A DNA stretch of 46,736 bases. Origin: a virus. The stretch covers positions 1 through 46,736 of IMG/VR virus record IMGVR_UViG_3300009085_000755; one strand, 5' to 3'. The notes under the pieces were generated by a model that was not told where the DNA came from, did not search any database, and saw only the letters and a list, made by a program, of their open reading frames with translations. The position numbers and the translations under genes were made by a program. This document shows positions 2,493 through 43,361 of this stretch, in pieces. How positions within the stretch are numbered: the stretch's first letter is position 1; each line of letters starts with the position of its first letter.

Positions 2493-2711
2493 ATGGAACG
2501 AAAGGAAATCCCCGTGCAAACCTTGGGCGAAATGGCGGCAGAGACGATGCGAATGGAAGCGGCGTCGCAAAGAGGAATTGCTTGCCCTAATTGCGGTTGC
2601 CGAGATTTACGCGTCTGCAAAACAAAGCCGCACGATGGCGACATTGGACGGCGAAGAGAATGCAGATATTGCGGACAGAGAATCACAACAATGGAGGTTG
2701 CGGTATCGTGA
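2493..2711 (+). CDS. small zinc-ribbon protein
   Basis: 72-residue protein with a four-cysteine zinc ribbon: CPNC near residue 31, CRYC near residue 57 and a basic linker between them, ending in ITTMEV. This layout resembles NrdR/Ogr-type zinc ribbons that bind DNA, but no full match can be claimed. Start ATG 2493 follows AGGGGGCAAG. Its stop overlaps the GTG start of the GIY-YIG gene (GTGA). Position just after the terminase suggests a packaging-linked or regulatory role; this is inference. Confidence 0.65.
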   Translation: MERKEIPVQTLGEMAAETMRMEAASQRGIACPNCGCRDLRVCKTKPHDGDIGRRRECRYCGQRITTMEVAVS

Positions 2712-3076
2712 AATCAATCAATCGCCAACTAATTGCCGACATTGTTGGCAATCTCAAATGCATGTCGATACCGGAGGAAGAAGACCCGATATGCGGTGTC
2801 TATTTTTTGCTGCATGAAGGCGAAATCGTGTACGTCGGATTCAGCCGGGACATCCGATTTCGGATCATTGAACATTTCAGGCATTCAAGCAGGGGACGTG
2901 GCCGCAAATGGAAAGAAGGAATTGACCCGGTAAGCGCTAAGCGAAAGAAGTTTGACGAAGCACGGTACATCGAAATCCCGGACGCAAAAGACGTTTTCGA
3001 CTTGGAGCAGATTTTGATAGACGTTTTGAAGCCGAAGTATAATTCTTCGTTCATCGCCTATGGCAAGGGCCACTAA
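2708..3076 (+). CDS. GIY-YIG nuclease domain protein
   Basis: 122-residue single-domain GIY-YIG nuclease. Seen: the paired motif G30-V-Y32 and V41-Y-V-G44, followed by a serine, an arginine-rich helix (SRDIRFRIIEHF), and the family's closing block EQILIDVLKPKYN with the metal-binding Glu and terminal Asn. Start GTG 2708 overlaps the upstream stop. No DNA-binding extension is present, so it could be a free-standing homing-type nuclease or a packaging/recombination nuclease. Lying between terminase and the head-joining gene, it sits where phages often carry HNH or GIY-YIG nucleases that help cos-type packaging. Confidence 0.8.
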   Translation: MKSINRQLIADIVGNLKCMSIPEEEDPICGVYFLLHEGEIVYVGFSRDIRFRIIEHFRHSSRGRGRKWKEGIDPVSAKRKKFDEARYIEIPDAKDVFDLEQILIDVLKPKYNSSFIAYGKGH

Positions 3077-19419: not shown

Positions 19420-19665
19420 ATGAACGCCGAACAACGCAAGCACCTGGAAGCCGTCAGAATCAGCCCGGTCGCCTCGATCGAAGTCCGGGGATCGGAAGTG
19501 GACGGGATCATCTGTGTCGCCAGCCGGTACGCCAAGTTCGTCACAGCCAGCTTTTTCAACTCGGATCGGCCGAGTTTTTTTGGCGGCCAGTACGCGACGG
19601 TCGAGGAAGCCAAGGTCGCCGCGCTGAAGGGCCGACAAGCCAAGGGCGAATGGGTCGATTGCTAA
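19420..19665 (+). CDS. hypothetical early protein, 81 aa
   Basis: First gene behind the rightward promoter. ATG 19420 is preferred to ATG 19387 because it lies 8 nt behind AAAGGGG. Small alpha/beta protein: SIEVRGSEVDGIICVASRYA, then an aromatic stretch (FFNSDRPSFFGGQYA) and the helix EEAKVAALKGRQAK. No known family. Likely an early host-takeover or switch protein. Confidence 0.6.
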   Translation: MNAEQRKHLEAVRISPVASIEVRGSEVDGIICVASRYAKFVTASFFNSDRPSFFGGQYATVEEAKVAALKGRQAKGEWVDC

Positions 19666-19727
19666 CCTCCACCACGAACCGGCCGGGACCGCACCCGCCC
19701 CACGAACCGAAAGCAAGGGGAAACAAA

Positions 19728-19916
19728 ATGACGACGAAGGAAGCAATTCGAGAACTGAGCTACCGCGACGGAGTAGAGTATCACCACGACTTCGGCGGCG
19801 TGAACGGGCAGCGGTTATGGTGGCTGAATCCGCAGGGGTTGACCTGCGAAATGCACGTCCAGGACTTGCCGCTGTATCTGTACGAGCGGCTCGGGATCGA
19901 AGTAACCGAAGACTAA
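19728..19916 (+). CDS. hypothetical early protein, 62 aa
   Basis: ATG 19728 follows AAGGGGAAAC. Compact aromatic protein (YRDGVEYHHDFGGVNG, QRLWWLNPQG) with an acidic end. Not recognised. The leader before it and the next leader share the words CACGAACCGGCC, so the intergenic regions seem to have been duplicated along with small genes. Confidence 0.6.
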   Translation: MTTKEAIRELSYRDGVEYHHDFGGVNGQRLWWLNPQGLTCEMHVQDLPLYLYERLGIEVTED

Positions 19917-19959
19917 CCACCACGAACCGGCCAACCGGCCACGAAAGGGAACCTAGACG

Positions 19960-20055
19960 ATGTGGTACGCAATTTTCAACGACGGCAGCGAGCATTGCAC
20001 TGGAGTAACCGACATCGACGCGGCCGACGAAGCCGCCGAAGATACGGACGGATGA
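19960..20055 (+). CDS. hypothetical small protein, 31 aa (possibly frameshifted)
   Basis: ATG 19960 behind CGAAAGGGAACC. Reads MWYAIFNDGSEHCTGVTDID and ends in an acidic stretch. Directly after the stop, the +1 frame carries on in a protein-like way (see 20056-20149), so this may be the first half of a 60-odd-residue gene. Confidence 0.5.
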   Translation: MWYAIFNDGSEHCTGVTDIDAADEAAEDTDG

Positions 20056-20149
20056 TGCCGGGACAGTGGCGTACCTCAAGGAGGTACTGGCCGCCCTCGT
20101 CGGCGACCTGGAAGCCCGGGCGATGATTGCAGACGCTTGCGACGATTGA
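20056..20149 (+). other. coding-like continuation in the +1 frame
   Basis: Reading from GAT GAT at 20051 gives DDAGTVAYLKEVLAALVGDL and then EARAMIADACDD before TGA at 20147-20149: an amphipathic helix with sensible composition. The only start in this frame is GTG 20066, with no clear ribosome site. Either the gene at 19960 is broken by one base, or +1 frameshifting joins the parts, or it is a separate 27-residue gene. Confidence 0.35.
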
Positions 20150-20163
20150 AGGGAAACTGACCG

Positions 20164-20409
20164 ATGACCGAGAGAATCGAGCGATGTGAAACGTGCCGCT
20201 GGCTAGAGTGCGATACCAGCGTCACGTGCCTCGATCACTGCCACCGACATGCGCCTCCGGCCTACGTGTGCGCGCCCGGCGAACCGGTTCGGGAGGCGGC
20301 TTGGCCCGTCGTCGCGCTGTCCGACTGGTGCGGCGAGTACCAACCTACCCCGCCCGCGGCGGCAACCAGCCACGCGGCCGGTAGTGTTTGCGGTCCAGGT
20401 AATACCTGA
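20164..20409 (+). CDS. small Cys/His-rich protein
   Basis: 81 aa. Two CxxC-like groups (CETCRW near residue 8; CLDHCHRHAP near residue 22) and a closing SDWCGEY give a zinc-binding look that recurs in small phage proteins. ATG 20164 follows GGGAAACTGACC. The 3' end overlaps the integrase gene on the other strand by 65 nt, so the last 20 residues may not be constrained. Function unknown. Confidence 0.6.
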   Translation: MTERIERCETCRWLECDTSVTCLDHCHRHAPPAYVCAPGEPVREAAWPVVALSDWCGEYQPTPPAAATSHAAGSVCGPGNT

Positions 20410-21157
20410 CCATTTCCGGGGACCGGTGGCCGAGGTACTCCCGCGCGGCGTCTACTCCATGCTCGACAGCAACCCACGTCGCCCCCGTGCGGCGGAGCTG
20501 CTGCAGGCCCCCATGATCATTCACCCCGGCAATCTGCCGGACACGAGCCCATACCTGCCGGTACTTCCTTGGCCCCCACGGGCAGGCGAGCGGGTGGGCG
20601 CCGGGCCGGGTGAGGATTCTCTTGACCGTTTCCGGCCGCAAGCGGGGCTCGTGCGCGTACCCTGTTTTCCGCTGCCGTAGCCGGATGACTTCCCCGATTT
20701 GCTCCCGAGCGAGCCCCTGCAGGTCACCTTTTCGGATTCCCGCCTCGTATCCGGCAGCAATCAGCGTCCCGAGGTATTCGCCTTCCGGCCCGCCAATCTG
20801 ATCGCAGGCCGCCAGCAGCCGCCCCACCTCGTCCGGCGTCCAGGCTACGGGCTGCGGATCTGGCGCCCGTTCGCGCCGGACTTCGCCGGGCGGTTTGCAG
20901 TAGCCACGCCTGGCCGCGAACCGCCAGAGGCAGAGAATCCGTGTCCGATGGCCCGCCAGCGTGGCGGCTTTCTGTTGCGGTTCCAGCGATTCCAACCACT
21001 GGCTGACAACCAGGTCGGTCAAGTCGCTGGCGACGGCGCCGCGGCCAAGGTGGGCCGTGAACAGGGCGACGGTGCGGCGCATCAGGTACGCCGCGCCGGA
21101 TGACAGGGGCCGGACGGTTTGGTATTCGGCTCGGATTCGCTCAAGGGTGCAACTCAT
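20345..21157 (-). CDS. int: tyrosine recombinase (integrase)
   Basis: 270 aa. N-terminal SAM-like core-binding domain (residues about 1-95), then the catalytic domain: Arg142 in YEAGIRKGDLQGL, Lys164 in RQRKTG, Arg222 in LQQLRRTGATW, His244 in YLGHRSPEMV and Tyr253 in RYYLD. The usual His of box II (HxxR) is Gln219, an accepted variation but worth noting. Integrates phage DNA at attP. An attP core matching the 3' part of a tRNA-Gly gene lies 66 nt upstream of its start. ATG 21157 is chosen over TTG 21163. No separate excisionase was recognised. Confidence 0.92.
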   Translation of the reverse strand: MSCTLERIRAEYQTVRPLSSGAAYLMRRTVALFTAHLGRGAVASDLTDLVVSQWLESLEPQQKAATLAGHRTRILCLWRFAARRGYCKPPGEVRRERAPDPQPVAWTPDEVGRLLAACDQIGGPEGEYLGTLIAAGYEAGIRKGDLQGLAREQIGEVIRLRQRKTGYAHEPRLRPETVKRILTRPGAHPLACPWGPRKYRQVWARVRQIAGVNDHGGLQQLRRTGATWVAVEHGVDAAREYLGHRSPEMVRYYLDRKHYRPRGWLPPRAG

Positions 21158-21159
21158 GG

Positions 21160-21185
21160 GCAACCAAACGTAGCACGCTGGTTGC
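21160..21185. promoter_or_regulatory. inverted repeat between integrase start and attP
   Basis: Perfect 7-bp inverted repeat GCAACCA (21160-21166) and TGGTTGC (21179-21185) with 12 nt between. It sits on the first bases upstream of the integrase gene, fitting an arm-type integrase site or an operator for int. Confidence 0.45.
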
Positions 21186-21222
21186 TTCCATGCTGCGGAA
21201 AAAGCAGTCCGTTTTAGGGAAT

Positions 21223-21269
21223 CTAGCTTCCCAAGCTGGATGTCGAGGGTTCGAGTCCCTTCGCCCGCT
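21223..21269 (+). other. attP core: 3' part of tRNA-Gly(CCC)
   Basis: Contains an intact anticodon arm (CTAGC 21223-21227, loop TTCCCAA with anticodon CCC at 21230-21232, GCTGG 21235-21239), a T arm (GAGGG, loop TTCGAGT, CCCTT, 21245-21261) and the acceptor 3' strand CGCCCGC (21262-21268) with discriminator T. The 5' half of a tRNA (D arm and acceptor GCGGGCG) is missing upstream. This is the normal form of an attP that restores the host tRNA after integration. Confidence 0.85.
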
Positions 21270-21298
21270 CCTTCAACTAATTTTGCGAGGTCGAAGAA

Positions 21299-21550
21299 AT
21301 GACAACCGCCGACGTTTACTTTCAGATCATGGCCGAATTAAGCGGCAAAACCGTGGAATTTCTGCGGGCGACATGCCCGGTCGAGATTTCAGAACAGCCG
21401 CTTTCAGATGAGAAAGCGGCTGATTTATTGCTGAAACTTCGCGCCGAAGGCCCCGGAATTGTCAATTGGGGCCTGGCTGGGCTGAAACGCGCGCAGGATC
21501 GTGCGGGCCGCCAACCAGCAGCGATCCGGCCCACTCCTGGAGAATCGTGA
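21299..21550 (+). CDS. hypothetical protein, 83 aa
   Basis: ATG 21299 behind GAGGTCGAAG. Mostly helical (DVYFQIMAELSGKTVEFLRA, DEKAADLLLKLRAEGPG). No family recognised. Lies between attP and the repressor. The last 30 codons overlap a short gene on the other strand, so one of the two may be shortened or unreal. Confidence 0.5.
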   Translation: MTTADVYFQIMAELSGKTVEFLRATCPVEISEQPLSDEKAADLLLKLRAEGPGIVNWGLAGLKRAQDRAGRQPAAIRPTPGES

Positions 21551-21608
21551 TTTCGAAATCGGACAAGCCGGCAGAACGAAGGAACGCGAGGAAGTTGGTC
21601 GGTTCCAT
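21462..21608 (-). CDS. hypothetical leftward small protein, 48 aa
   Basis: ATG 21608 has a good GAAAGGG site 9 nt upstream. Reads MEPTNFLAFLRSAGLSDFEI then ITILQEWAGSLLVGG: a compact helical protein. Overlaps the 3' end of 21299-21550 in antisense by 89 nt. It would lie in the same leftward transcript as 21854-22018 and the integrase. Confidence 0.4.
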   Translation of the reverse strand: MEPTNFLAFLRSAGLSDFEITILQEWAGSLLVGGPHDPARVSAQPGPN

Positions 21609-21649
21609 TTGAAAAACCCTTTCGTCGGAAGGTGAAAAACGGGTGAAAA

Positions 21650-21913
21650 ATGCCACAAATCCCAGACAATCATCGCAACATCAAGCCAATCGGCAGGGGG
21701 TGTTTTGAAACGACCTGCAAAGCCTGTGGTGACGTTTCTATCGTGGGCCCCGGTGACGATTTGTTCGGTGAAGTTGACAAGCAATCGATCTTCTGGCCGC
21801 TGTGCTCCAAGTGCTACGACGGCCCGCGCGGCACGCGTCAGCAGGTCGATGACCTACTTGGCCGGCGCGAAAGCAAGGACACGGGCGACCATGACGGACC
21901 CGCCGTCGGGTAG
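21650..21913 (+). CDS. small zinc-ribbon-like protein, 87 aa
   Basis: Two CxxC pairs (CFETTCKACG near residue 18, CSKCYDG near residue 52) with about 30 residues between them, a typical zinc ribbon. ATG 21650 follows a GGGTG. The last 20 codons overlap a leftward gene. Function unknown. Confidence 0.5.
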   Translation: MPQIPDNHRNIKPIGRGCFETTCKACGDVSIVGPGDDLFGEVDKQSIFWPLCSKCYDGPRGTRQQVDDLLGRRESKDTGDHDGPAVG

Positions 21914-22018
21914 ATCGCGGACTTCCTGGATCCGGGCGTGGTAGCGGCCGGGGGCGGTGACAGCGGCGCCGGATTTGTCGATCAACTGGACGGCGGCGGT
22001 GGATTTGGATTCGGACAT
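21854..22018 (-). CDS. hypothetical leftward protein, 54 aa
   Basis: Reads MSESKSTAAVQLIDKSGAAV and continues with RYHARIQEVRDLPDGGSVMV and ARVLAFAPAK. Start ATG 22018 has AAAGGTG upstream. It is the first gene left of the palindromic promoter at 22079-22110, whose leftward half would transcribe it. Unrecognised; could be a Cro-like partner, an excision factor or an anti-repressor. Confidence 0.5.
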   Translation of the reverse strand: MSESKSTAAVQLIDKSGAAVTAPGRYHARIQEVRDLPDGGSVMVARVLAFAPAK

Positions 22019-22078
22019 TTGCACACCTTTCGTGAAACGTGAAACTGGAAATCGGAACGGACGGGGAACAACGGCGGG

Positions 22079-22110
22079 TATTGTACACTTGCCCTACCTG
22101 TAGTACAATA
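22079..22110. promoter_or_regulatory. palindromic two-way promoter/operator, copy 1
   Basis: TATTGTAC (22079-22086) and GTACAATA (22103-22110) form a perfect 8-bp inverted repeat 16 nt apart. On both strands it spells -35 TTGTAC, a 17-nt gap, and -10 TACAAT. Rightward -10 ends at 22109, so transcription would begin at or next to the ATG (22116) of the HTH gene, giving an almost leaderless message like lambda PRM. Leftward it would feed 21854-22018. Confidence 0.7.
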
Positions 22111-22115
22111 GGAGC

Positions 22116-22361
22116 ATGAAACCAATGAAACGCGAACAGGCTTTCGTTGCCACACTGCGGCGCGAGATCCAAACCGGCACCATCACGAAGTTCGGCCTTG
22201 CCAAGACGGCCGGAATTTCACGCTCGCACTTGGACAAGATCCTTGCTGGGGATTGCCGGCTGTCATTGGAACTTGCGGACACCCTGGCAGACGCCATCGG
22301 CCAACCACTGGAAGAAATGATTGCCGACAAATCGAATCAGCGCGAAGCAGTCGCCGTCTAA
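22116..22361 (+). CDS. small HTH repressor (Cro/C1 type)
   Basis: 81 aa with one helix-turn-helix: TKFGLAKTAGISRSHLDKIL (residues about 25-44) is the recognition unit, followed by the usual ELADTLADAIGQPLEEMI dimer helix. No C-terminal cleavage domain, so it is not a RecA-cleavable CI; more like Cro or a Xre-type C1. GGAG lies just upstream of ATG 22116, but would be outside a transcript made from 22079-22110; ATG 22125 is a possible alternative. Two matching operators frame the gene, so it very likely represses itself and its neighbour. Confidence 0.82.
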   Translation: MKPMKREQAFVATLRREIQTGTITKFGLAKTAGISRSHLDKILAGDCRLSLELADTLADAIGQPLEEMIADKSNQREAVAV

Positions 22362-22378
22362 AAAACTTTCATCCCATC

Positions 22379-22406
22379 TTGTACTCCTGCCCTACCTATA
22401 GTACAA
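22379..22406. promoter_or_regulatory. palindromic promoter/operator, copy 2
   Basis: 25 of 28 positions match copy 1 (differences only at positions 7, 9 and 20). TTGTAC (22379-22384), 17 nt, TACAAT (22402-22407) is again a rightward promoter. Leftward the -10 is weaker (TACAAG). A terminator begins at 22410, so transcripts made from here would stop within about 35 nt. Confidence 0.65.
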
Positions 22407-22409
22407 TAC

Positions 22410-22447
22410 GCCCGTCGCAAGGAAATCTTGCGGCGGGCATTTTTTTT
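22410..22447 (+). terminator. strong intrinsic terminator behind repressor gene
   Basis: Twelve-base-pair stem (22410-22421 against 22427-22438, one T-G pair) with a 5-nt loop, then T8 from 22440. Ends the repressor message and insulates the DNA-metabolism operon. Confidence 0.88.
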
Positions 22448-22707
22448 GGCCTTCGACCTGCGAGTGCTTTGCACGTTGACCAGCTAGGCCATTTCTTCCC
22501 GTCGCCGATTCTTCCGAGCGACAACGCCCGACGCGGGTTCTACCCGTGGCTGCGGGCTGCCTGGGGTTGAACGTCGAGGCCCCCAACCGCCGAAAGGCCG
22601 TTGCATTTACCGGCAAACCAGCCGGGCATGATTCACCAGGAGCCGCAGGACTGCGGCACGTAAATGGATTGGCTCCAACGTTTCCACCAGTTTCGAGGTG
22701 CGCGCCC
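22448..22707 (+). other. leader region without recognised gene; hairpins and two tiny ORFs
   Basis: About 260 nt before the next gene. Seen: a perfect hairpin GCCGCAG-GA-CTGCGGC (22642-22657), an enclosing repeat GGAGCC (22639-22644) / GGCTCC (22671-22676), and two very short reading frames placed end to start: 22628-22663 (11 codons plus stop) and 22664-22711 (15 codons plus stop). The second ends over the ATG at 22708. The layout suggests a leader with coupled translation; no known RNA class was recognised. Confidence 0.35.
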
Positions 22708-23043
22708 ATGAAAGCAGCAACCGCATTGAACGGGGTTCACAGGCTCAAGCTGGCGTTCGTCAGATTGCCAGCCGTCGAAGCCGGGCCCGGGCAAGATCCG
22801 TCTGGCCAGCAGGAATTTGCAATCGCCAGCGGTCTGCCGATTCCCGAAACGCGGCAAGGTGCCCCGTGCAAGTATCCCTGGGACAAGCTCGCCGTCGGGG
22901 ATTCGTTTTTCATCCCTGGCAAGACCTCGCAGACGATCAGCCCGGCCCGCCAGTCGGCAGAGCACACGCGAGGCACGAAGTACGCAAGCCGAACCGTCGA
23001 AGAAAACGGCGTGCGCGGCGTGCGGGTGTGGCGGATCAAGTAA
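22708..23043 (+). CDS. hypothetical protein with YPW...VGDSFF motif
   Basis: 111 aa. The C-terminal half (CKYPWDKLAVGDSFFIPGKT, then KYASRTVEENG and a VRVWRIK end) resembles a small domain seen in many phages next to recombination genes, whose function is not known. ATG 22708 lies behind GAGGTGCGCGCCC. The same leader word stands before the next gene (23062-23073). The frame is open upstream to 22546, but that part looks non-coding. Confidence 0.6.
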   Translation: MKAATALNGVHRLKLAFVRLPAVEAGPGQDPSGQQEFAIASGLPIPETRQGAPCKYPWDKLAVGDSFFIPGKTSQTISPARQSAEHTRGTKYASRTVEENGVRGVRVWRIK

Positions 23044-23073
23044 CGATCACTATTTTTGTTTTGAGGTGCGCGC

Positions 23074-23196
23074 ATGGACCCTCGCCTACACGACGAACTT
23101 GGTCGGCATCTGACCGCACTGAAACGCGAGTTGTGGCGGCTGATAATCGTGGTGTACGGATTGGCATCAGCAGCCGCTTGGTGGTTGCTGTGGTGA
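23074..23196 (+). CDS. 40-residue membrane protein
   Basis: MDPRLHDELGRHLTALKREL, then WRLIIVVYGLASAAAWWLLW: a charged helix followed by one membrane span with a Trp-rich end. ATG 23074 behind GAGGTGCGCGC. A short membrane protein in the early region could be an exclusion factor or help membrane-bound replication. No family known. Confidence 0.55.
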   Translation: MDPRLHDELGRHLTALKRELWRLIIVVYGLASAAAWWLLW

Positions 23197-23289
23197 TACT
23201 TCTTCTGCCGCCAGCTTGTAGCCAGCGGCAGAACCCAGTTCGGCCCGACCCGCGACGGATTCAGGCGGCCGGGCCGGCTGGTGTTTTTC

Positions 23290-23394
23290 GGGACCGTGGC
23301 GCAACTGGCAGACGCGCGCCAAACGCACTGAGCCGCTGCAGCGGAGGAACTCGGACGATTGGCGATGTTGCAGGTTCGATGCCTGCCGGTCCCA
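23290..23394 (+). tRNA. tRNA-like element with enlarged anticodon arm (tRNA-Leu-like ends)
   Basis: 105 nt. Acceptor GGGACCG (23290-23296) pairs perfectly with CGGTCCC (23387-23393), discriminator A. D arm GCG/CGC (23299-23301, 23313-23315) around a Leu-like loop with TGG. T arm GCAGG/CCTGC (23370-23386) around TTCGATG. An anticodon stem CGCCA (23317-23321) pairs with TGGCG (23360-23364), but 38 nt lie between instead of 7. These hold a second stem CTGAG/CTCGG and a hairpin CCGC-TGCA-GCGG. No U33 or plain anticodon loop is seen. It may be an interrupted tRNA, a tRNA-mimic RNA, or a decayed gene. CCA is not encoded. Confidence 0.5.
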
Positions 23395-23410
23395 CTGGAC
23401 GGAGCAAACA

Positions 23411-23584
23411 ATGCGACACAACCACCTGCGAACGGTACCCCAACGCAAAAAGACCCACCGTGGCAAGCCGTCTGCGGTGGCAGGGCGCAAACGACACCAG
23501 CACCAGTGGGCCGGGGTTGTGCGGCCGGTGCCACGGGTGCGGACGGTGTGCTTGGCCTGGACTGTGACGACGGCTGAAGGCTGA
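23411..23584 (+). CDS. small basic protein, 57 aa
   Basis: ATG 23411 with GGAG nearby. Very rich in Arg, His and Lys (QRKKTHRGKPSAVAGRKRHQ), then a hydrophobic end. Nucleic-acid binding is possible. It is short and of low complexity, so it may be chance; kept because it follows the tRNA-like element with a ribosome site and fills the gap to the exonuclease gene. Confidence 0.35.
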   Translation: MRHNHLRTVPQRKKTHRGKPSAVAGRKRHQHQWAGVVRPVPRVRTVCLAWTVTTAEG

Positions 23585-26640: not shown

Positions 26641-26901
26641 ATGACGCGACAACCAGAAGCATCTGCAGACGCGATGATCCGTTGGGGCGGTGACTACGAC
26701 GCCCGTTGCGTAGAGAGACTGTCAACGTTTGAGCAATGGGGCATCTCTGACGCGAAAGCCGGCTTGCCGATGCTGCGGACATTCGGCCACCTGGGGACGG
26801 GCTACTCGTCAGCGGAAGGCACGCGATACGAAAAAGGGTATCGGTCGATCCTGAGCGTGACCGAAGAGGCGGAAATGCTGAGACAGAAGAGGTTGTTCTA
26901 G
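26641..26901 (+). CDS. hypothetical protein, 86 aa
   Basis: ATG 26641; the frame is open further left, but the 170 nt before it (26470-26640) are not protein-like. Reads MTRQPEASADAMIRWGGDYD and LPMLRTFGHLGTGYSSAEGT. The stop overlaps the GTG of the RecD2 N-terminal gene (TAGTG). No family recognised. A weak ribosome site makes the start somewhat uncertain. Confidence 0.5.
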   Translation: MTRQPEASADAMIRWGGDYDARCVERLSTFEQWGISDAKAGLPMLRTFGHLGTGYSSAEGTRYEKGYRSILSVTEEAEMLRQKRLF

Positions 26902-27926
26902 TGGCGGCTCTAACCGAAATCTCTGGCATCTTCATCCGCGAATTCCAGCGGTGGGACGCGACGGCCATGCTGTCGGTTGAGATGCCAGTGCAAACTGGAC
27001 TGGCCGAGGTTATGGGAGAGCAGATGCAGACCGACGTAACCGTGAAGCTGGATTGCGACCCAGGCGAACTGCTGCCGGACCAGGAGTATCGGTTTATCGG
27101 CCAGTGGCGGGATCATCGAAAATACGGCCGCCAGTTTCACGCTTCCTCGTTCGCCTTGATCCAGCCCCACACCCGGCAGGGCGTTATCCGATACCTCGTA
27201 CACGCTGGCCAGGGGTTGCGATTCGGCCTGGTGCGCGCCGCCGCTCTCTATGACGAATGGGGGCAAGACGCGGTGCGGATCGCCCGCGAGAAGCCGGCAG
27301 AAGTTTGCCAACTGCTGGCCAGCCGTCGGCTTCAATTTGACCACGCCGCGGCGGTGAACTTGTCAACACGGCTCGGTGACGACGCGGCCCTGGAAGCGAC
27401 CACGCTGGACGTCCTCGACCTGCTGACCGGGAGAGGCTTCCCAAGAGCGACGGTGCGCGACGTGGTGAAGGAATGGGGGGCCGACGCCGCACAGAGGATC
27501 AGACGCGACCCATACAAATTGATGAAGTTCCGGGGGTGCGGATTCAAGCGGTGTGACGCGATGTGGATTGAGCTGGGGCTGCCACCGGGCCGGTTGAAGC
27601 GGCAAGCACTGGCGGCATGGTACGCGATTCACAGTGACACTGACGGGCACACCTGGTATCCAGCCACGGTGGCTGAGCGAGCCATCCACGCGAACGTTGG
27701 CGGGGCTGATGTGGACACGGTGAAGGCCATGCGGCTGGCGAGACTTGGGGGCCGGCTGGCAGAAGTGCAGACGGACGGACGAGGGGCGATTTATCGGCAA
27801 CCCAACGGCAATGGGCAAGGGGTTGGGATGCGATGGGTTGCTGAGAAAAGAGCGGCGGAGAATGAACGGGAGATTGCGGAGATCGTCGCAGGAGCGATGG
27901 GGGAGGGAGTGAAATGGCCGGCTTAA
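26901..27926 (+). CDS. recD2: RecD2-like helicase, N-terminal part
   Basis: 341 aa. Seen: an OB-like start (EISGIFIREFQRWDATAMLS, DQEYRFIGQWRDHRKYGRQF) and then the helix-hairpin-helix-rich region of RecD2 (RDPYKLMKFRGCGFKRCDAM). It holds what lies before the motor in RecD2 and no Walker motif. The next gene, starting in another frame with a 13-nt overlap, holds the motor. The two likely form one enzyme, split at the domain border. Confidence 0.78.
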   Translation: MAALTEISGIFIREFQRWDATAMLSVEMPVQTGLAEVMGEQMQTDVTVKLDCDPGELLPDQEYRFIGQWRDHRKYGRQFHASSFALIQPHTRQGVIRYLVHAGQGLRFGLVRAAALYDEWGQDAVRIAREKPAEVCQLLASRRLQFDHAAAVNLSTRLGDDAALEATTLDVLDLLTGRGFPRATVRDVVKEWGADAAQRIRRDPYKLMKFRGCGFKRCDAMWIELGLPPGRLKRQALAAWYAIHSDTDGHTWYPATVAERAIHANVGGADVDTVKAMRLARLGGRLAEVQTDGRGAIYRQPNGNGQGVGMRWVAEKRAAENEREIAEIVAGAMGEGVKWPA

Positions 27927-29251
27927 CCTCCCACCAATCCGCCGAACTTCGCCGCGCTACCTCCGGCCCGATCGGGATCCTCGGGGGCGGACCAGGGACC
28001 GGTAAGACGTTCACCGTCGCCTGCCTCGTCGAATCGCTGGCCAGCACGGTCGGGCTCGACAACATCTGCATCGGGGCCCCGACGGGCAAGGCCGCTGTGA
28101 GAGTCACGGAGGTAATGCAGAAAGCCGGGCTGCCGATCCGGGCTCGGACGTGGCATAGCATCTTGCGTGGCGGAACGGATTCTGGGTTCGAGTTCGACCG
28201 GAAGAACCCGCTGCCGTTTTCCGTGCTGATCGGTGACGAATCCTCAATGGTGGATACCGATTTGATGGCCGGCATTCTCCGAGCCCGCCCGCGCGGCTGC
28301 CTTTGCTTGCTTGTGGGCGACGTCCATCAATTGCCGCCCGTGGGCGGAGGTGCCCCCCTGCGAGATTTTATAGCCAGCGGCCTTCCCTACGGCGAACTAA
28401 CCGAAATCAAACGCAACAGCGGCGGCATCGTGGAAGCGTGCCACGCGATACGACAGGGCAAGCCGTGGGAGTGCGGGGACAATCTGAAGCTGGTTGACAG
28501 GCAAAGCCCGGAATTTCAAATCAAGGCCATGTTGGAAACGATACACCAGCAGGGTACGTACACATCTCCACTCGACCCGATCAACGACGTTCAGGTGCTG
28601 GCCGCCGTCAACGAGAAATCACCGCTGGCCAGAAAGACGCTCAACGCGATTCTGCAGGGAGAGTTGAACGCAGGCGGACAGAAGGCCAGCGGCAACCCGT
28701 TCCGCGTTGGCGACAAAATCGTCTGCTTGAAAAACGGCCGTTACAAGGCCTTGGAATACGACGCCGCGAACCCCGACCTGGATGCGAACGAACGGGACGA
28801 GGTTTATGTCGCGAACGGAGAACTCGCCCGCGTGCTGGACGTGGAACCGGGTAGCACGACGGCCCGGCTGGAGAATCCGACCCGCGTGGTGAGAATCCCG
28901 CGCGGCGGCGGAGATGCCAGCCAGGCGGAAGGCGAAGGCGGAGAGCAGGCGGCGGAATCAGGGGCCGGCTGCAATTGGGATCTTGGGTTCTGCCTTTCGG
29001 TCCACAAATCGCAGGGCAGCGAGTGGCCGATCGTTATTACCATGCTCGATGACTACCCCGGCGCTCGCATGGTCTGCAGCCGCGAACTTCTCTATACGGC
29101 CATCAGCCGGGCCAAGGATCGGCAATACCTGATCGGCCGGAAGGCCACGGCAGATGCGATGGTGAGTAGGCCAGCGATTTGGAAAAGGAAAACGTTTTTG
29201 CGGGAGCGGATTTTGATGGAACGGGCCAAGCTGGAGATTGCGGAATTATGA
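27914..29251 (+). CDS. recD2: RecD2-like helicase, motor part (SF1B)
   Basis: 445 aa. Walker A GGPGTGKT (residues 25-32), Walker B IGDESSMVD, motif III VGDVHQLPPVG, RKTL-type motif, and motif VI LLYTAISRAKD. The SF1B order of RecD-type 5'-3' helicases is complete. ATG 27914 behind GGAGTGAAATGG, overlapping the N-terminal gene by 13 nt. A charged, Gly/Glu-rich insert (about residues 330-350) is unusual. The stop overlaps the ERCC4-type nuclease gene (ATGA). Confidence 0.92.
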   Translation: MAGLTSHQSAELRRATSGPIGILGGGPGTGKTFTVACLVESLASTVGLDNICIGAPTGKAAVRVTEVMQKAGLPIRARTWHSILRGGTDSGFEFDRKNPLPFSVLIGDESSMVDTDLMAGILRARPRGCLCLLVGDVHQLPPVGGGAPLRDFIASGLPYGELTEIKRNSGGIVEACHAIRQGKPWECGDNLKLVDRQSPEFQIKAMLETIHQQGTYTSPLDPINDVQVLAAVNEKSPLARKTLNAILQGELNAGGQKASGNPFRVGDKIVCLKNGRYKALEYDAANPDLDANERDEVYVANGELARVLDVEPGSTTARLENPTRVVRIPRGGGDASQAEGEGGEQAAESGAGCNWDLGFCLSVHKSQGSEWPIVITMLDDYPGARMVCSRELLYTAISRAKDRQYLIGRKATADAMVSRPAIWKRKTFLRERILMERAKLEIAEL

Positions 29252-37592: not shown

Positions 37593-37696
37593 CATTTCCG
37601 CGTTTCTCGGGTTGAATCTCGGTTACTCGGATTGCAGGCCGCGACCCGCACAGCTCGCAATGACGCGAGCGACCTAACACGTGCGGAGTTTGCGCC

Positions 37697-38488
37697 ATGG
37701 CCACAAACAGCCGATTGCGACCGATTGCCGGGGACCGATCCAAACGCGACATTCTCCGAATCGCGTCCTACCGCCTGCCGATCCTCTCGGCTGTTTTTTT
37801 TCTTCTGATGCTGGCCGCTCCGCTGTTCGCGCAGTCGCCCAAGGCGGTGATAACGGGCCCTCGCGATTCACGCCCCGGTGCCCTGGTGGTCCTCGATGCG
37901 AGCGAATCCACGGGGACGGGCCGGCTCTGGCTGTTGGCTGTCTCGCCCGAGGAAACCTCGTTCCTGCCTGTCGAGAGCGGCTTGAAATGCATCTTTGCGA
38001 GCCCCACGCCGGGCGTGTACACGTTCGTTTTGGTGGTTGCCGGCACGAATGCCAACGGCGGCGCCGCGGCCGACATGGCCACGCACACGATTACGCTGCG
38101 GGGCGGAACAATCCCGCCGCCCACGCCGCCCCCGGTTGTCGTGACGCCGGACCCTATCCTGCCCCCGTCGCAACTGACGGGGGAAGCTTACCTAATCGTG
38201 ATCCGCCGCAACGAGGACTTGACCGCCGACGAGGCCGCTGTGCTGGTGAAAATGAGATCATGGGTTGATAACCAGCTCGGCAAGGTTCAGCAGTTGGAGT
38301 TTCCGCCCGATGCTGACGACGGCGCCGTCAAAAGCTACCTCGCAAAACTCCCGGCCGGGGCGGAACTGCCCTACGTGTTCTTGGCTCGCCCGCGCAAGGA
38401 CGGCAAGGGGGCGGCCGTGATTTGGAACGGCGAGTTGCCGGCCCGGGCCGAGGATCTGCAAGCCAAAGTATTGGAGCTGGCCCTATGA
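37697..38488 (+). CDS. exported protein with PKD-like domain
   Basis: 263 aa. A signal peptide (basic start, then SAVFFLLMLAAPLFAQS) with likely cleavage after AQ near residue 47. Residues 50-135 look PKD-like: GPRDSRPGALVVLDASEST, PGVYTFVLVVAGT. A Pro-rich linker (PPPTPPPVVVTP) leads to a C-terminal alpha/beta domain (GEAYLIVIRRNEDLTADEAA). Overlaps the papain-like gene by ATGA, so both are made together. Could hold the enzyme at the cell envelope. Confidence 0.6.
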   Translation: MATNSRLRPIAGDRSKRDILRIASYRLPILSAVFFLLMLAAPLFAQSPKAVITGPRDSRPGALVVLDASESTGTGRLWLLAVSPEETSFLPVESGLKCIFASPTPGVYTFVLVVAGTNANGGAAADMATHTITLRGGTIPPPTPPPVVVTPDPILPPSQLTGEAYLIVIRRNEDLTADEAAVLVKMRSWVDNQLGKVQQLEFPPDADDGAVKSYLAKLPAGAELPYVFLARPRKDGKGAAVIWNGELPARAEDLQAKVLELAL

Positions 38489-39288
38489 CGATCCCCCGCA
38501 AGTTCATTGACGTCGATTTCACAGTCATCCCCTCCGATCAATCGACGGGGCTTATCGAGCAACCACCCGAGGAACTGCTGGCGTCCTTCGGTGCGATTCC
38601 TTGGTATGACGAGATTTGCGCGTCCGACATGGTGCCAAAGGATCAATGGAAAACCCGCGCCGCTGCGATCCGTGACGACCTGCGGCGCACGGTCGCGCAA
38701 ATCTACAGCCAAGGCAAAACGTCGGCTTGCGTCGGCTTCTCTGCGGCCCAAGCGTGTGAAACTACGTTCACCAGAACATACGGCATCAAGCACCGCGTGG
38801 CGCTCTCCGGCATGAGCGTCTATGATCGAATCGGCAATTCGCTGATGAGCGGCGCGTACATCCCTGACGGTATTGCGTGCTTGCAAAAAGACGGACCGCT
38901 GCCGTTGGACACGCCAGAAAATCGGGCCAAGTATCCGGTGTGCTTCCCGGGGCTCAGCTACAAATGGAAGCGGCCGTCCGGATGGGAGGATGTGGCAGCG
39001 ATGTTCAAGGTCACGAAGGCTGCAAAGGCATCCGGAAAGGAAATGATTGCATCCGCGATGCTGAAAAAACGCACTGGCATCTACGGCCGGTCTCGGCACG
39101 CCGTGCCCCCGGTATACCTCGACTTCGACGGCAACAGCCCGATGCTGGCCTATGCGAATTCGTGGGGAGACTGGGGAGATGAAGGTTTCGGCTACGACTC
39201 CGAGCGTGTGTTCTCGGACCTGATTCTTTACGTGATTTTGGAAGTCGCCGTCCGGCCGGACCTTGGATTGCCGGCTGTTGCGGCCTAA
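38485..39288 (+). CDS. papain-like cysteine protease
   Basis: 267 aa. The C1A catalytic layout is complete: Gln76 and Cys82 in QGKTSACVGFSAAQ (spacing of six, as in papain's oxyanion Gln and Cys), His205 in GRSRHAVPPV and Asn225 in AYANSWGDWGDEGFGY. No signal peptide. Cuts proteins. In a block of exported and membrane proteins, it might act on the host envelope at lysis, or on virion proteins. Papain-like enzymes are rare in phages, which makes this placement notable. Confidence 0.85.
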   Translation: MTIPRKFIDVDFTVIPSDQSTGLIEQPPEELLASFGAIPWYDEICASDMVPKDQWKTRAAAIRDDLRRTVAQIYSQGKTSACVGFSAAQACETTFTRTYGIKHRVALSGMSVYDRIGNSLMSGAYIPDGIACLQKDGPLPLDTPENRAKYPVCFPGLSYKWKRPSGWEDVAAMFKVTKAAKASGKEMIASAMLKKRTGIYGRSRHAVPPVYLDFDGNSPMLAYANSWGDWGDEGFGYDSERVFSDLILYVILEVAVRPDLGLPAVAA

Positions 39289-39304
39289 CGAGGAGGGTAT
39301 TTCG

Positions 39305-39688
39305 ATGGGTTTGCTCAGTGACTTTTGCGGCGCCGTTCAAGGCCGCATGAAGCGTTACGGGTTCGACATTTCCACGCTGTTGGACACGCTGTTGCCGATG
39401 CTGGTGGAGATGCTGGAAGGCTGCTTCGACAAGTCGTCCGACCTGGAATCGTTCGCCAGTGGCAAGCGTACTCCGAAACAGATGGTCGGCTTGCGGCTGC
39501 GGTGCCGTGCGACCGTGGTGGAGCTGAAGGATGCCAACGGCCGGCAAGCCATCCGGGGTATCGGCCGCATTGCGTCGGCTACCAGCGACCTGCAGAAAGC
39601 GATCCTGGACGAGTTGGAAGATCGCGCCGGCAAAGCGACCGGGCCGGACATCTGGCAGCAAGCGCTGGACGAGGCCGCCGCGTTCTGA
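39305..39688 (+). CDS. hypothetical protein, 127 aa
   Basis: ATG 39305 behind GAGGAGGG. Helical N-terminal (DISTLLDTLLPMLVEMLEGC), basic middle and an acidic helical end. No motif recognised. Lies between the papain-like protease and an exported protein. Confidence 0.5.
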   Translation: MGLLSDFCGAVQGRMKRYGFDISTLLDTLLPMLVEMLEGCFDKSSDLESFASGKRTPKQMVGLRLRCRATVVELKDANGRQAIRGIGRIASATSDLQKAILDELEDRAGKATGPDIWQQALDEAAAF

Positions 39689-39734
39689 TTTTCGTTTCCC
39701 GTTTCTGTTCACAATTTCTGAGGAGGTTCGACCG

Positions 39735-40091
39735 ATGAAACCAGTTCTGTTTTTCCTGTGCCTGTTTGCCCTGCTGACGCTGGGCATGTCCTGCTACTGT
39801 ATCGCCGCCGACGGCCCGCCGCCGATCGCCGTTGACGTGTTTGCGCTGGACTCGCCCGTCTTGCTGACCGCGGGGGCCGTGTGTTCCGGGCCGGCGTGTA
39901 GATCCGCTGGATTGCAAGCCGGCCAACCGCTCAGAAACACGGGACGCGTGGCCTTGGCACCGCTAAGAGTAGGCCGCGCCGTGATTGCAGCCAGACCGCT
40001 ACGCCGCTTCGGATCCGCTATTCGAGATGCCGCTCCAGGCCGCAGGTTGGCACGGGCCGCTTTCGCGCCGGTTCGGTGGCTGCTGCGATGA
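39735..40091 (+). CDS. exported small protein, Arg-rich C-terminus
   Basis: 118 aa. Signal peptide MKPVLFFLCLFALLTLGMSC (lipoprotein-like, with Cys20 as possible acyl site) and then an Arg/Ala-rich tail (RVGRAVIAARPLRRFGSAIR). ATG 39735 behind GAGGAGG. The form resembles an outer-membrane spanin or a small lytic lipoprotein; this is a guess from shape. Confidence 0.5.
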   Translation: MKPVLFFLCLFALLTLGMSCYCIAADGPPPIAVDVFALDSPVLLTAGAVCSGPACRSAGLQAGQPLRNTGRVALAPLRVGRAVIAARPLRRFGSAIRDAAPGRRLARAAFAPVRWLLR

Positions 40092-40303
40092 TTCTGCCCC
40101 GCCAGACGCCGCCGGTGTCTCACGTGTCCTTATGCCTTCGCGTAAGGCCGGCGGCGCGGCCCGTCGGTTACGCTGTTGGCCGATCATTCGGATGCTGTAG
40201 CCGGCTGGCATGGACGCCGGCCGGGCTGCAGTGTGAGGGGCGGATTATCCACGGGACGGTTTACGAGGTTGCAGCGACCAGGAAACAGGAACGGAATCCG
40301 TGA
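40088..40303 (+). CDS. hypothetical protein, 71 aa
   Basis: ATGA overlap with the exported protein at its front and GTGA overlap with the next gene. Cys/Arg-rich (SFGCCSRLAWTPAGLQCEGR). Not recognised and of odd composition; kept because of the tight coupling on both sides. Confidence 0.4.
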   Translation: MILPRQTPPVSHVSLCLRVRPAARPVGYAVGRSFGCCSRLAWTPAGLQCEGRIIHGTVYEVAATRKQERNP

Positions 40304-40740
40304 CAGAAATTGCCGCCCTGATCCGTGAGCTTGGTGTCCCAACTGCCGGCTTCGTTGTGCTTGGTGTCGTACTCTATAAAATCGGGACGATCTGCGGAAA
40401 GCTGCTGATTGACGCATGGGCGGCCAAGGACACAAAGCTCGTTGAACTAGAGAAGAGAATCGAGCAGGTACAGAACGGCCAACGCGCGGCCCTTGAGCAA
40501 CGTCTCGACGCGAGCATAGAGCAGGCCCGACTGAGCGGCGAGCAACAGGAAAAGACAAACGACTGCCTTTACAAGCTGGGATTAGCGTTTCACCATTTTG
40601 CAGAAAACCGGCCCTGCCTTCACGACTCCGATCTGGTGATCGTAAACGACGCCACGCCCTCGCCCGACGACAAGACGCTGAGGGTGATTGCACGCAAGAA
40701 AGTCAGGGACGCGAAACGCACAGAGACCGCGGAGGGGTGA
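40300..40740 (+). CDS. one-span membrane protein with coiled coil (holin/spanin candidate)
   Basis: 146 aa. One membrane helix at residues 13-35 (VPTAGFVVLGVVLYKIGTI), followed by a coiled coil (LVELEKRIEQVQNGQRAALE, residues about 47-85). N-out/C-in helix plus coil is the shape of BhlA-like holins and inner-membrane spanins. GTG start overlaps upstream stop. It is the only clear membrane candidate for lysis in this region. Confidence 0.45.
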   Translation: MTEIAALIRELGVPTAGFVVLGVVLYKIGTICGKLLIDAWAAKDTKLVELEKRIEQVQNGQRAALEQRLDASIEQARLSGEQQEKTNDCLYKLGLAFHHFAENRPCLHDSDLVIVNDATPSPDDKTLRVIARKKVRDAKRTETAEG

Positions 40741-40743
40741 ACC

Positions 40744-40977
40744 ATGTGTGAAGGATGCCCACTGCAATCGCTGGCCGACTTCTTTTCGTGTGCTGAGACC
40801 GACTTGCATGTCTGGCACCAGAAAGCAAATCAGCCGGATAGGGTAATGCTGTCCGTGACGCACGACGGAGAGCAGTTTGCGGTAACGGACGAAACATGCC
40901 GAGGGGCCGTGGCGAAACTGTTGCAGGAAATGGATTCCAAACGAGTTGGGGACATGATCCCGGTACTAGTGGACTGA
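40744..40977 (+). CDS. hypothetical protein, 77 aa
   Basis: ATG 40744 behind GGAGGGG. Two Cys near the start (CEGCPLQ) and mixed alpha/beta afterwards (HVWHQKANQPDRVMLSVTHD). Ends just before the adhesin gene. No family recognised. Confidence 0.5.
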   Translation: MCEGCPLQSLADFFSCAETDLHVWHQKANQPDRVMLSVTHDGEQFAVTDETCRGAVAKLLQEMDSKRVGDMIPVLVD

Positions 40978-41027: not shown

Positions 41028-43361
41028 ATGGCGAAAGCCGGGGCAAGTTCAAAATTTGAGACTAGGCCGGGCTCTGACGAGTTCCGGTTGTCGAACGTAG
41101 ACGGCCGGGCTACCGTGGACGTTGGCCAGCCGTCGAAATTCGCCGGCAAGCTCGGTCCCGGATGGCGTTCCGAAAAGTGGGGCGGCAGGGCGTGGATGCA
41201 GGTCAGCGGGCATGACGTGAAATTGAACCGGGCCGGCACGCTGAAAACGGACTCGAAACGCGGCGAGGTTTACGAGTGTGAGTGCCTGCGGAAAGTCAAA
41301 GGGCGAGACCGGGCAGAGCGGCACATCATCCTGCCGGGGAGCACAGAGTATCAGATCGAATGGGACACGCTCGCCGACGTGCCGGACACCGGCTACGTCG
41401 ATTTGGCGCTGGAGTTCAGCGGGGATCTAACGTGGCACAAGCAACTTGCGTTGACGCAAGAGCAAATCGACGGCGGGGCAGTCCGGCCAGAGAACGTACT
41501 CAACTCCTATGCGGTCTTTGGTCCTTTATCTGGCCGATACTTACGAGCGGACGGCTCGGAGATTATCAACTATGAGAACGGCAAATTCTGCCACCTGTAC
41601 CGCTCGTGTTTAATCGACGCCAATGGAAACCGCTGCTGGCTGGATCAGACTGCCCCGATGACGGGGCCAAACCGTTTGCGGGTTGCTCTCGATCTTGCAT
41701 GGCTGCGAGATGCCACGTTCCCCGTGACTCTTGACCCGACGTTTGGTTACACGTCGGAAGGGGCATCTGAGCTAACGCTCGGAAGAGATTACCAATTTGT
41801 TTGTGGTCCGTTTGCGCCAGCAAGCGATGGTGACGCCTCGTCAGTTTCGCTCTATTGCAGAACCACGTCCGGCGAAAATGCAACATTTGGGATTTTTAAC
41901 TCCACGGCGAGTACGAAGTTACGAGACACCGCCGGGTCTGCTGTTGGCACGACGACAGCACTTCACACGAAAAACCTAGATAGTGTTTTGGCGGTTACGA
42001 GCGGGACAAACTACTATCTAGGCGCTGGGTCTGCGGCTACGGCTGTAACAGCTTTCTACGTCAAGTACGACAGTGTTTCTGGCATATACATTGGGAGGGA
42101 CTTTTCAACAAGTTACGTTGACGGAACTCTGCGAGATAACGGAGTTGGAGCGACTGAAAACAGCTACAAAGTTTCCATTTACGCGACGTACACTGAAGAA
42201 GCAGAGCCTCCTGCTGATCCTGGATGGACTGTAGATGGTATCGCGTTCACGAAGCGGAAGAAGATTACGATCGCTAACACGAACGTCGGAGAGACGTTGA
42301 CGGACTTTCCGCTGTTGGTTCAGATTTCCGCAGACGCAAACATCGGAGCCGTGTGCCAATCGGATGGAGACGATCTGAGATTTACGGACGCCGCTGGCAC
42401 ACTATTGTCCGCAGAAAAGGAATCGTTCTCGGTTTCCAGCGGGCAAGCGACCGGGATCTTCTGGGTGAAGGTCGGGAGCATTTCGCACACGGCCGGAACT
42501 GACATCTATTGTTATTACGGAAACTCTGGAGCATCGGCACAGGCAGCACCGAGCGGAGTTTGGAACTCTGGATACAAAGGCGTCTGGCACGGTAAGGACG
42601 CTACAACCAGCACGATTGCGGACAGCACGGCAACAGCGGCAACCGGCACGAAGACAGCGGCAAACGAGCCCGTGGAAGCCGCTGGAAAAATCAATAAGGC
42701 GCAGAGCTTCGACGGGTCAAACGACATCATCGACGTTGGCGATATTGCGGCGTTCCAGATGGAGCGCACGGACTCGTTCACGTTTCAGGCATGGATCAAA
42801 ACGTCTCACGACGGCTTTAACCGAATCTGGCACAAGTCGAAAGGTTCGTCGCCATACAGCGGGATTTGGTTTGGCAAGTACAGCACGAACAAAGCCTACT
42901 GCGAACTGTACGACGCTGAGGGCGATCGGATCGGGCGACTTGGTGCGACGAGCATCAATGACAATGCGTGGCGGTTGATCCACGCGACGTACTCAGGAAG
43001 TTCGGCGAGCAGTGGAATCAACCTCTATGTCGATGGGGTTGACGACGACACCTCGGACTCGGCTGGAGGCACGTTCAATAGTTCGATCAAATATGCGGTG
43101 TCGGCAAAAATTGGAGCCGACACCGCAGGCGGACGCTGGAACGGACTGATTGGCGAGATTCGCGTTTCCAACGTCGTCCGGTCTGCCAACTGGATTCATT
43201 TCGAGTGGCACAATCAATCTGACTCTGGTGGAAATCTGACGTGGGCGACCGAGGAAATAAACACGTCGCTGCTATACTGGATGCGAGGCAGTAAGCGTGA
43301 TGTTGGATCGCGGTTATCTGGTATTATTGGACAACGAAGAAGCACCCTCATAGGGAGATAA
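41028..43361 (+). CDS. DUF2341-LamG adhesin / tail fibre protein
   Basis: 777 aa. Residues 1-300: beta-rich virion part. About 400-510: DUF2341 (KRKKITIANTNVGETLTDFP, DGDDLRFTDAAGTLLS), then YCYYGN. About 545-750: LamG/concanavalin-like domain (INKAQSFDGSNDIIDVG, DSFTFQAWIKTS, GRWNGLIGEIRVSN). Such pairs bind glycans on cells or surfaces. ATG 41028 behind GGGGGAGAGGGG; an upstream in-frame start is not needed. Likely receptor-binding or surface-fixing protein of the virion. Confidence 0.72.
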   Translation: MAKAGASSKFETRPGSDEFRLSNVDGRATVDVGQPSKFAGKLGPGWRSEKWGGRAWMQVSGHDVKLNRAGTLKTDSKRGEVYECECLRKVKGRDRAERHIILPGSTEYQIEWDTLADVPDTGYVDLALEFSGDLTWHKQLALTQEQIDGGAVRPENVLNSYAVFGPLSGRYLRADGSEIINYENGKFCHLYRSCLIDANGNRCWLDQTAPMTGPNRLRVALDLAWLRDATFPVTLDPTFGYTSEGASELTLGRDYQFVCGPFAPASDGDASSVSLYCRTTSGENATFGIFNSTASTKLRDTAGSAVGTTTALHTKNLDSVLAVTSGTNYYLGAGSAATAVTAFYVKYDSVSGIYIGRDFSTSYVDGTLRDNGVGATENSYKVSIYATYTEEAEPPADPGWTVDGIAFTKRKKITIANTNVGETLTDFPLLVQISADANIGAVCQSDGDDLRFTDAAGTLLSAEKESFSVSSGQATGIFWVKVGSISHTAGTDIYCYYGNSGASAQAAPSGVWNSGYKGVWHGKDATTSTIADSTATAATGTKTAANEPVEAAGKINKAQSFDGSNDIIDVGDIAAFQMERTDSFTFQAWIKTSHDGFNRIWHKSKGSSPYSGIWFGKYSTNKAYCELYDAEGDRIGRLGATSINDNAWRLIHATYSGSSASSGINLYVDGVDDDTSDSAGGTFNSSIKYAVSAKIGADTAGGRWNGLIGEIRVSNVVRSANWIHFEWHNQSDSGGNLTWATEEINTSLLYWMRGSKRDVGSRLSGIIGQRRSTLIGR

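Follow-up and report, generated by a model that had tools for sequence, protein, structure and literature searches.

A papain-like protease in a recurring gene cassette of planctomycete phages and its possible role in host lysis

How does a tailed phage open its host when its genome holds no recognisable peptidoglycan hydrolase? The question is raised by a phage genome of 46,736 bases, the entire linear IMG/VR record IMGVR_UViG_3300009085_000755, which we analysed in full and refer to as the window. A preliminary description of its sequence had proposed that a papain-like protease might replace the usual endolysin in a host whose envelope is largely protein. We found no paper on the lysis genes of planctomycete phages, and none that described phage exit from bacteria without normal peptidoglycan. 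It is also disputed what keeps the planctomycete wall together. We propose that the region at 37.7-40.7 kb is a lysis cassette of planctomycete phages, in which the papain-like protease would replace the endolysin and cut envelope proteins, aided by a thioredoxin in some relatives. In our judgement, this reading is about as likely as not.

By Pfam, the window carries in order the genes of a tailed phage, namely terminase large subunit, lambda-type portal, capsid, tape measure and replication genes, followed by the protease region (Table 1). Portal and capsid lie at 3.3-7.1 kb, and the protease at 38.5 kb. On the minus strand at 20345-21163, a 272-aa open reading frame (ORF) has tyrosine-recombinase-like C-terminal residues (LRRTGATW, LGHRS, YY) and is 56% identical to a similarly placed ORF of a related phage, G016. 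An integrase PHROG was matched among the window ORFs; therefore, the phage is probably temperate. A RecD2-like helicase is encoded at 26901-29251 as two overlapping genes, the OB/HHH part followed by the helicase core, and G016 also has two overlapping genes homologous to this split helicase. Directly 3′ of the terminase, at 2591-3076 (+), is a GIY-YIG endonuclease-domain gene, possibly for a homing endonuclease.

Table 1. Genes in and next to the protease region of the window
Product	Position	Strand	Features
Exported or anchored partner protein	37697..38488	+	263 aa; hydrophobic signal/anchor at 19-37; 4-nt overlap (ATGA) with the protease gene
Predicted papain-like (C1A fold) cysteine protease	38485..39288	+	267 aa; ATG start; no signal peptide; PF00112, AlphaFold, Foldseek
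Protein with no assigned role	39305..39688	+	127 aa; strong Shine-Dalgarno
Protein of no family	39735..40091	+	118 aa; signal-peptide-like N terminus
Protein of holin-like architecture	40300..40740	+	146 aa; N-terminal TM segment (7-25) and coiled coil
Small protein	40744..40977	+	77 aa; small positional counterpart in G016 (37684-37965); cassette membership uncertain
DUF2341 and Laminin_G_3 (ConA-like lectin) protein	41028..43361	+	PF13385 E 1.2e-14; PF10102 E 4.7e-10

The preliminary description had called the 267-aa protein papain-like from four residues, Gln76, Cys82, His205 and Asn225. These are where it placed them (...YSQ76GKTSAC82VGFS..., ...GRSRH205A..., ...YAN225SWGDWGDEG), in the C1A order Gln, Cys, His, Asn with the Gln six residues before the Cys. 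The Pfam family PF00112 (Peptidase_C1) matched residues 67-112 with an E-value of 3.8e-4 and 21.0 bits. Because this score narrowly passes the curated cut-off of 20.7 bits, sequence alone is thin evidence for a papain identity. For the counterparts in two related phages, the Pfam score was 27.3 bits in G006, and PF00112 gave no match in G016. A scan for the Q..C..H..N motif in 4179 ORFs of the window and its relatives, with some ORFs occurring in more than one locus, detected the window gene and these two counterparts only. When eight phage proteases with 20-33% identity to the window protein were aligned, just 11 columns were invariant, and all four catalytic residues were among them. Single-sequence searches of IMG/VR, GTDB contigs and phage records with the protease gave no confirmed relative, and a search with a degenerate papain pattern gave no match.

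Structure prediction, which the preliminary description had suggested as a check, returned a papain fold. The AlphaFold model, built from the eight-sequence alignment, had a pLDDT of 74.4 and a pTM of 0.76, with low confidence at residues 1-40; an earlier model from three divergent sequences (pLDDT 33) was set aside. Foldseek matched the model to papain-family structures in the PDB at probability 1.0. In structural alignments, the model gave a Z-score of 19.7 with xylellain (3ois_A; rmsd 2.7 over 208 residues), 19.0 with Der p 1 and 18.1 with pro-papain. The window protein is thus modelled as an enzyme of papain fold, with a conserved active site in an otherwise divergent sequence. With the MEROPS C1A/PF00112 enzymes (xylellain, Der p 1, cathepsins and papain) it shares the fold (Z 17-20), the Gln-Cys-His-Asn order and the NSWG motif. 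It differs from them in its low identity (~13-22% in structural alignments), in having neither a recognisable propeptide nor a signal peptide, in the replacement of the Trp after the catalytic Cys by Val, and in being phage-borne, inside a cassette of membrane proteins.

The gene upstream had been described as coding for an exported PKD-like protein coupled to the protease. Export and coupling were borne out by the signal/anchor and the gene overlap, but the PKD domain found no support in Pfam, where the best match was FN3-like (E 0.33). We read the C-terminal ~90 aa of this partner, from its sequence, as a putative thioredoxin-like domain without CxxC, for which Pfam gave no match. This C-terminal part aligns with the partners in G016, G421, G424, G233, G355 and G423. 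The signal-peptide and membrane proteins that had been noticed downstream are there, as the 118-aa protein and the 146-aa protein with its single TM segment. TM-plus-coil proteins were also found in the cassettes of G016, G233, G355, G421, G424 and G006. Pfam assigned no holin family to the TM proteins of the cassettes, and in PHROGs the sole match was weak and had no assigned function. For the 127-aa protein, a search for relatives gave none; near its position, other cassettes hold a small C-tail-anchored membrane protein. The DUF2341/Laminin_G_3 protein is likely a virion adhesin that marks the edge of the cassette and lies outside it; G016 carries a related gene.

Is this arrangement peculiar to the window? 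Related phages were collected by portal alignment, G006 and G016 among them with papain-motif proteins, and seven further phages or prophages by searches of planctomycete genomes and IMG/VR (G233, G355, G421, G423, G424, G455 and G528). The cassette is present in the window, in G016 and in all these seven, and in a looser form in G006, G349 and G311. It recurs in about ten otherwise different planctomycete viruses, both phages and prophages, with differing terminases and portals. Four elements recur: the protease itself; immediately 5′ of it, a partner that is exported or anchored in the membrane; a small protein with a C-terminal tail anchor; and a protein that combines one N-terminal TM segment with a coiled coil. 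As in a lysis cassette, small membrane proteins are thus encoded beside the enzyme, and in conserved order, in the window and eight relatives. The G016 copy is in the syntenic place with the same gene order, and the 4-nt overlap of partner and protease genes is common to the window, G016, G421 and G424.

In G233, G355, G423 and G455, an exported CxxC thioredoxin is encoded 3′ of the protease (PF13098, E 2.5e-9 in G423); no CxxC thioredoxin was found in the window cassette. In the same four, the cassette is directly upstream of the terminase, which is the next large gene. Their structural genes were unrelated to those of the window by blastp. Unrelated structural genes around a shared cassette indicate that the cassette moves between phage backbones.

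Two other features of these genomes were seen. Between portal and terminase, G423 (19658-23461) and G455 (2930308-2934129) have an opposite-strand ORF of 1267-1273 aa, 52% identical between the two and missing at that place in G355; it is possibly an accessory gene. One protein of G016, G421 or G423 has an Acb2/Tad1 hairpin domain by Pfam (E 1.4e-6), which hints at an anti-defence sponge in that phage.

A search for a hidden endolysin with profile models agreed with the preliminary description, which had recognised no peptidoglycan hydrolase in the window. Pfam detected none in 50 ORFs of the window, and none was among the best 25 of the 29 PHROGs matches to 36 window ORFs. In three carriers, G016, G423 and G421, the Pfam families of 79 proteins, listed in full, also included none. 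In related phages without the papain gene, no peptidoglycan hydrolase was recognised among 25 of the 30 Pfam families listed. The absence alone proves little, because it extends to these phages without the protease, whose lysis enzymes may just be unrecognised.

The hosts of the cassette provide another line of evidence. The window protease query matched two of the 392 genomes that were drawn from across one phylum. PF07596 occurred at 41-129 copies per genome in five of six checked genomes of this phylum, and in none of 14 control genomes; a passage of PMC8567305 gives at least 41 PF07596-type genes per Planctomycetales genome. From these copy numbers, we infer that the phylum is Planctomycetota. 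The penicillin-binding transpeptidase domain PF00905 was present in 377 of the 392 genomes, and both carriers were among the 15 without it. The chance of this for two genomes is about 0.14% (15/392 x 14/391), a figure that applies to independent events, which the two related carriers are not. When 241 genomes in the family of G233 were searched, two more close copies were found, in G455 and G528, so that all four close bacterial copies (G233, G355, G455 and G528) are in one planctomycete family. For this reason, the association with hosts is not made of independent events. PF00905 was missing in 34 of 35 tested genomes of the family, including all four carriers; in the lone positive, the match was partial and lay at the end of a contig.

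The absence of PF00905 in this family resembles a family-level loss. No MurG above the cut-off was found in G233, G355 or G002. Both MurG and penicillin-binding proteins (PBPs) are present in G349 and G311, which have more distant papain-plus-thioredoxin cassettes. G002, the bacterial genome with a relative of the window portal, belongs to the carrier family. Judging from these two genes, protease and portal, the window phage, which probably infects planctomycetes, may have its hosts in that family.

Published work is in dispute on whether planctomycetes are free of peptidoglycan. Jeske et al. reported peptidoglycan in four planctomycete strains, R. baltica among them (PMC4432640). PMC8567305, with reference to Mahajan et al. 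2020 and other work, describes peptidoglycan genes as absent in most Planctomycetales, and places YTV proteins, which are rich in cysteine, in wall preparations of planctomycetes. In Planctopirus limnophila, mur genes were dispensable (PMC10632474).

How might the cassette work? The absence of a signal peptide from the protease, together with the adjoining membrane proteins, gives a holin-endolysin layout. The protease would be made in the cytoplasm and released through the inner membrane by at least one small membrane protein, for which the TM and coiled-coil protein of the window and, in relatives, the C-tail-anchored protein are candidates. Once released, it would cut proteins of the envelope in hosts whose family is without the PBP transpeptidases needed for normal peptidoglycan. 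Its presumed helpers in the periplasm are the exported partner, whose gene is translationally coupled to that of the protease, and also, in several relatives, the exported CxxC thioredoxin. Plausibly, they may activate the protease, or may reduce cysteine-rich proteins of the wall or present them to it. A more general form of this proposal is that phages of PBP-less planctomycetes swapped the endolysin for a protein-cutting papain enzyme, paired in several lineages with an exported thioredoxin, against a protein wall that is rich in cysteine and may be linked by disulfides. We advance this form tentatively and consider it somewhat less probable than the lysis cassette itself. Disulfide linkage of the wall is our own suggestion and does not appear in the passage of PMC8567305.

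Of the original idea of a protease replacing the endolysin in a host with a protein envelope, the papain fold, the conserved module in the usual lysis position, the lack of a recognised endolysin and the PBP-less family of the closest copies are now in place. Lysis as the outcome, the protein substrate and the release by a holin, along with the thioredoxin step, are what we infer.

Known phage cassettes of holin, endolysin and spanin resemble this one in having a soluble enzyme without signal peptide, clustered small TM and exported proteins, and often an adjacent terminase. The window cassette differs in that its enzyme is a C1A-type protease without a peptidoglycan-binding or known peptidoglycan hydrolase domain, and in that its candidate holins are not recognised by HMM. 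PeiW and PeiP of methanogen phages and prophages are pseudomurein endoisopeptidases, cysteine peptidases that open a non-murein wall. They are comparable as cysteine peptidases of prokaryotic viruses directed against a non-murein wall, but their target is pseudomurein and their peptidase family is different.

The main rival is that the protease is a papain-fold peptidoglycan endopeptidase that cuts peptide cross-links, the ordinary target of an endolysin. CHAP and NlpC/P60 enzymes cut such cross-links in peptidoglycan, and a papain fold could in principle do so. Alicyclobacillus phage MMB025 speaks for this rival: its 753-aa protein annotated as endolysin (L111:3881-6142) holds a Peptidase_C1 domain (residues 39-225) fused to peptidoglycan-directed domains (Rv2525c glycoside-hydrolase-like and PG_binding_1), with an Ig-like domain in the same chain. 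The likeness is that a papain C1 domain occurs in an annotated lysis enzyme; the planctomycete phage proteases, in contrast, are free-standing, and Pfam found no peptidoglycan hydrolase or wall-binding domain in the window protein. Structure matches in BFVD include phage proteins named 'Peptidoglycan binding-like' and N-acetylmuramidase. On the host side, the peptidoglycan reported in some planctomycetes (PMC4432640) and the PBPs and MurG of the G349 and G311 carriers speak for an endopeptidase, but in the family with the closest copies PF00905 is missing from 34 of 35 genomes tested, and MurG was below the cut-off in the three members tested. In addition, Gln-Cys-His-Asn with NSWG is the arrangement of the protein-cutting papains of C1A. 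We regard an endopeptidase as unlikely.

Two further explanations are less likely than the endopeptidase. The protease might be part of the virion or associated with the tail, opening a protein surface layer at entry; its gene would be grouped with those of the neighbouring adhesins. The cassettes of the window and G016 are indeed immediately 5′ of LamG/DUF2341 and collagen-like fibre genes, but those of G233, G355, G423 and G455 adjoin the terminase and holin-like proteins rather than fibres, and the protease has no tail-domain fusion; we give this explanation a small chance. Smaller still is that of an accessory (moron-type) module of protease and thioredoxin that alters the host surface from a prophage, for example in superinfection exclusion. 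It would suit the patchy distribution, the 20-40% identity between phages, and carriers that are prophages and a probably temperate phage. The same gene order and overlapping genes in several phages, in which no separate lysis genes were found, point to a core function instead, and the protease has no signal peptide. A prohead maturation protease, suggested by little besides its being phage-encoded, was rejected as very improbable because one carrier lineage has its own prohead protease (one PF04586 Peptidase_S78 among the 79 proteins of G016, G423 and G421, assigned to G423 by gene order), and because the papain gene lies at a distance from the capsid gene in all genomes seen, and in the window from the portal gene too.

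If the lysis-cassette reading is true, the lysis system of a bacterial virus is aimed at a proteinaceous wall instead of peptidoglycan. Since carrier prophages sit in sequenced planctomycete genomes (that of G455 is in a 6.5-Mb contig), the question is directly testable. A phage enzyme evolved against the planctomycete wall would represent a mechanism of lysis for which bacteria offer no known example. Such an enzyme would also be a probe of the wall, since its substrates would reveal which proteins bear the load.
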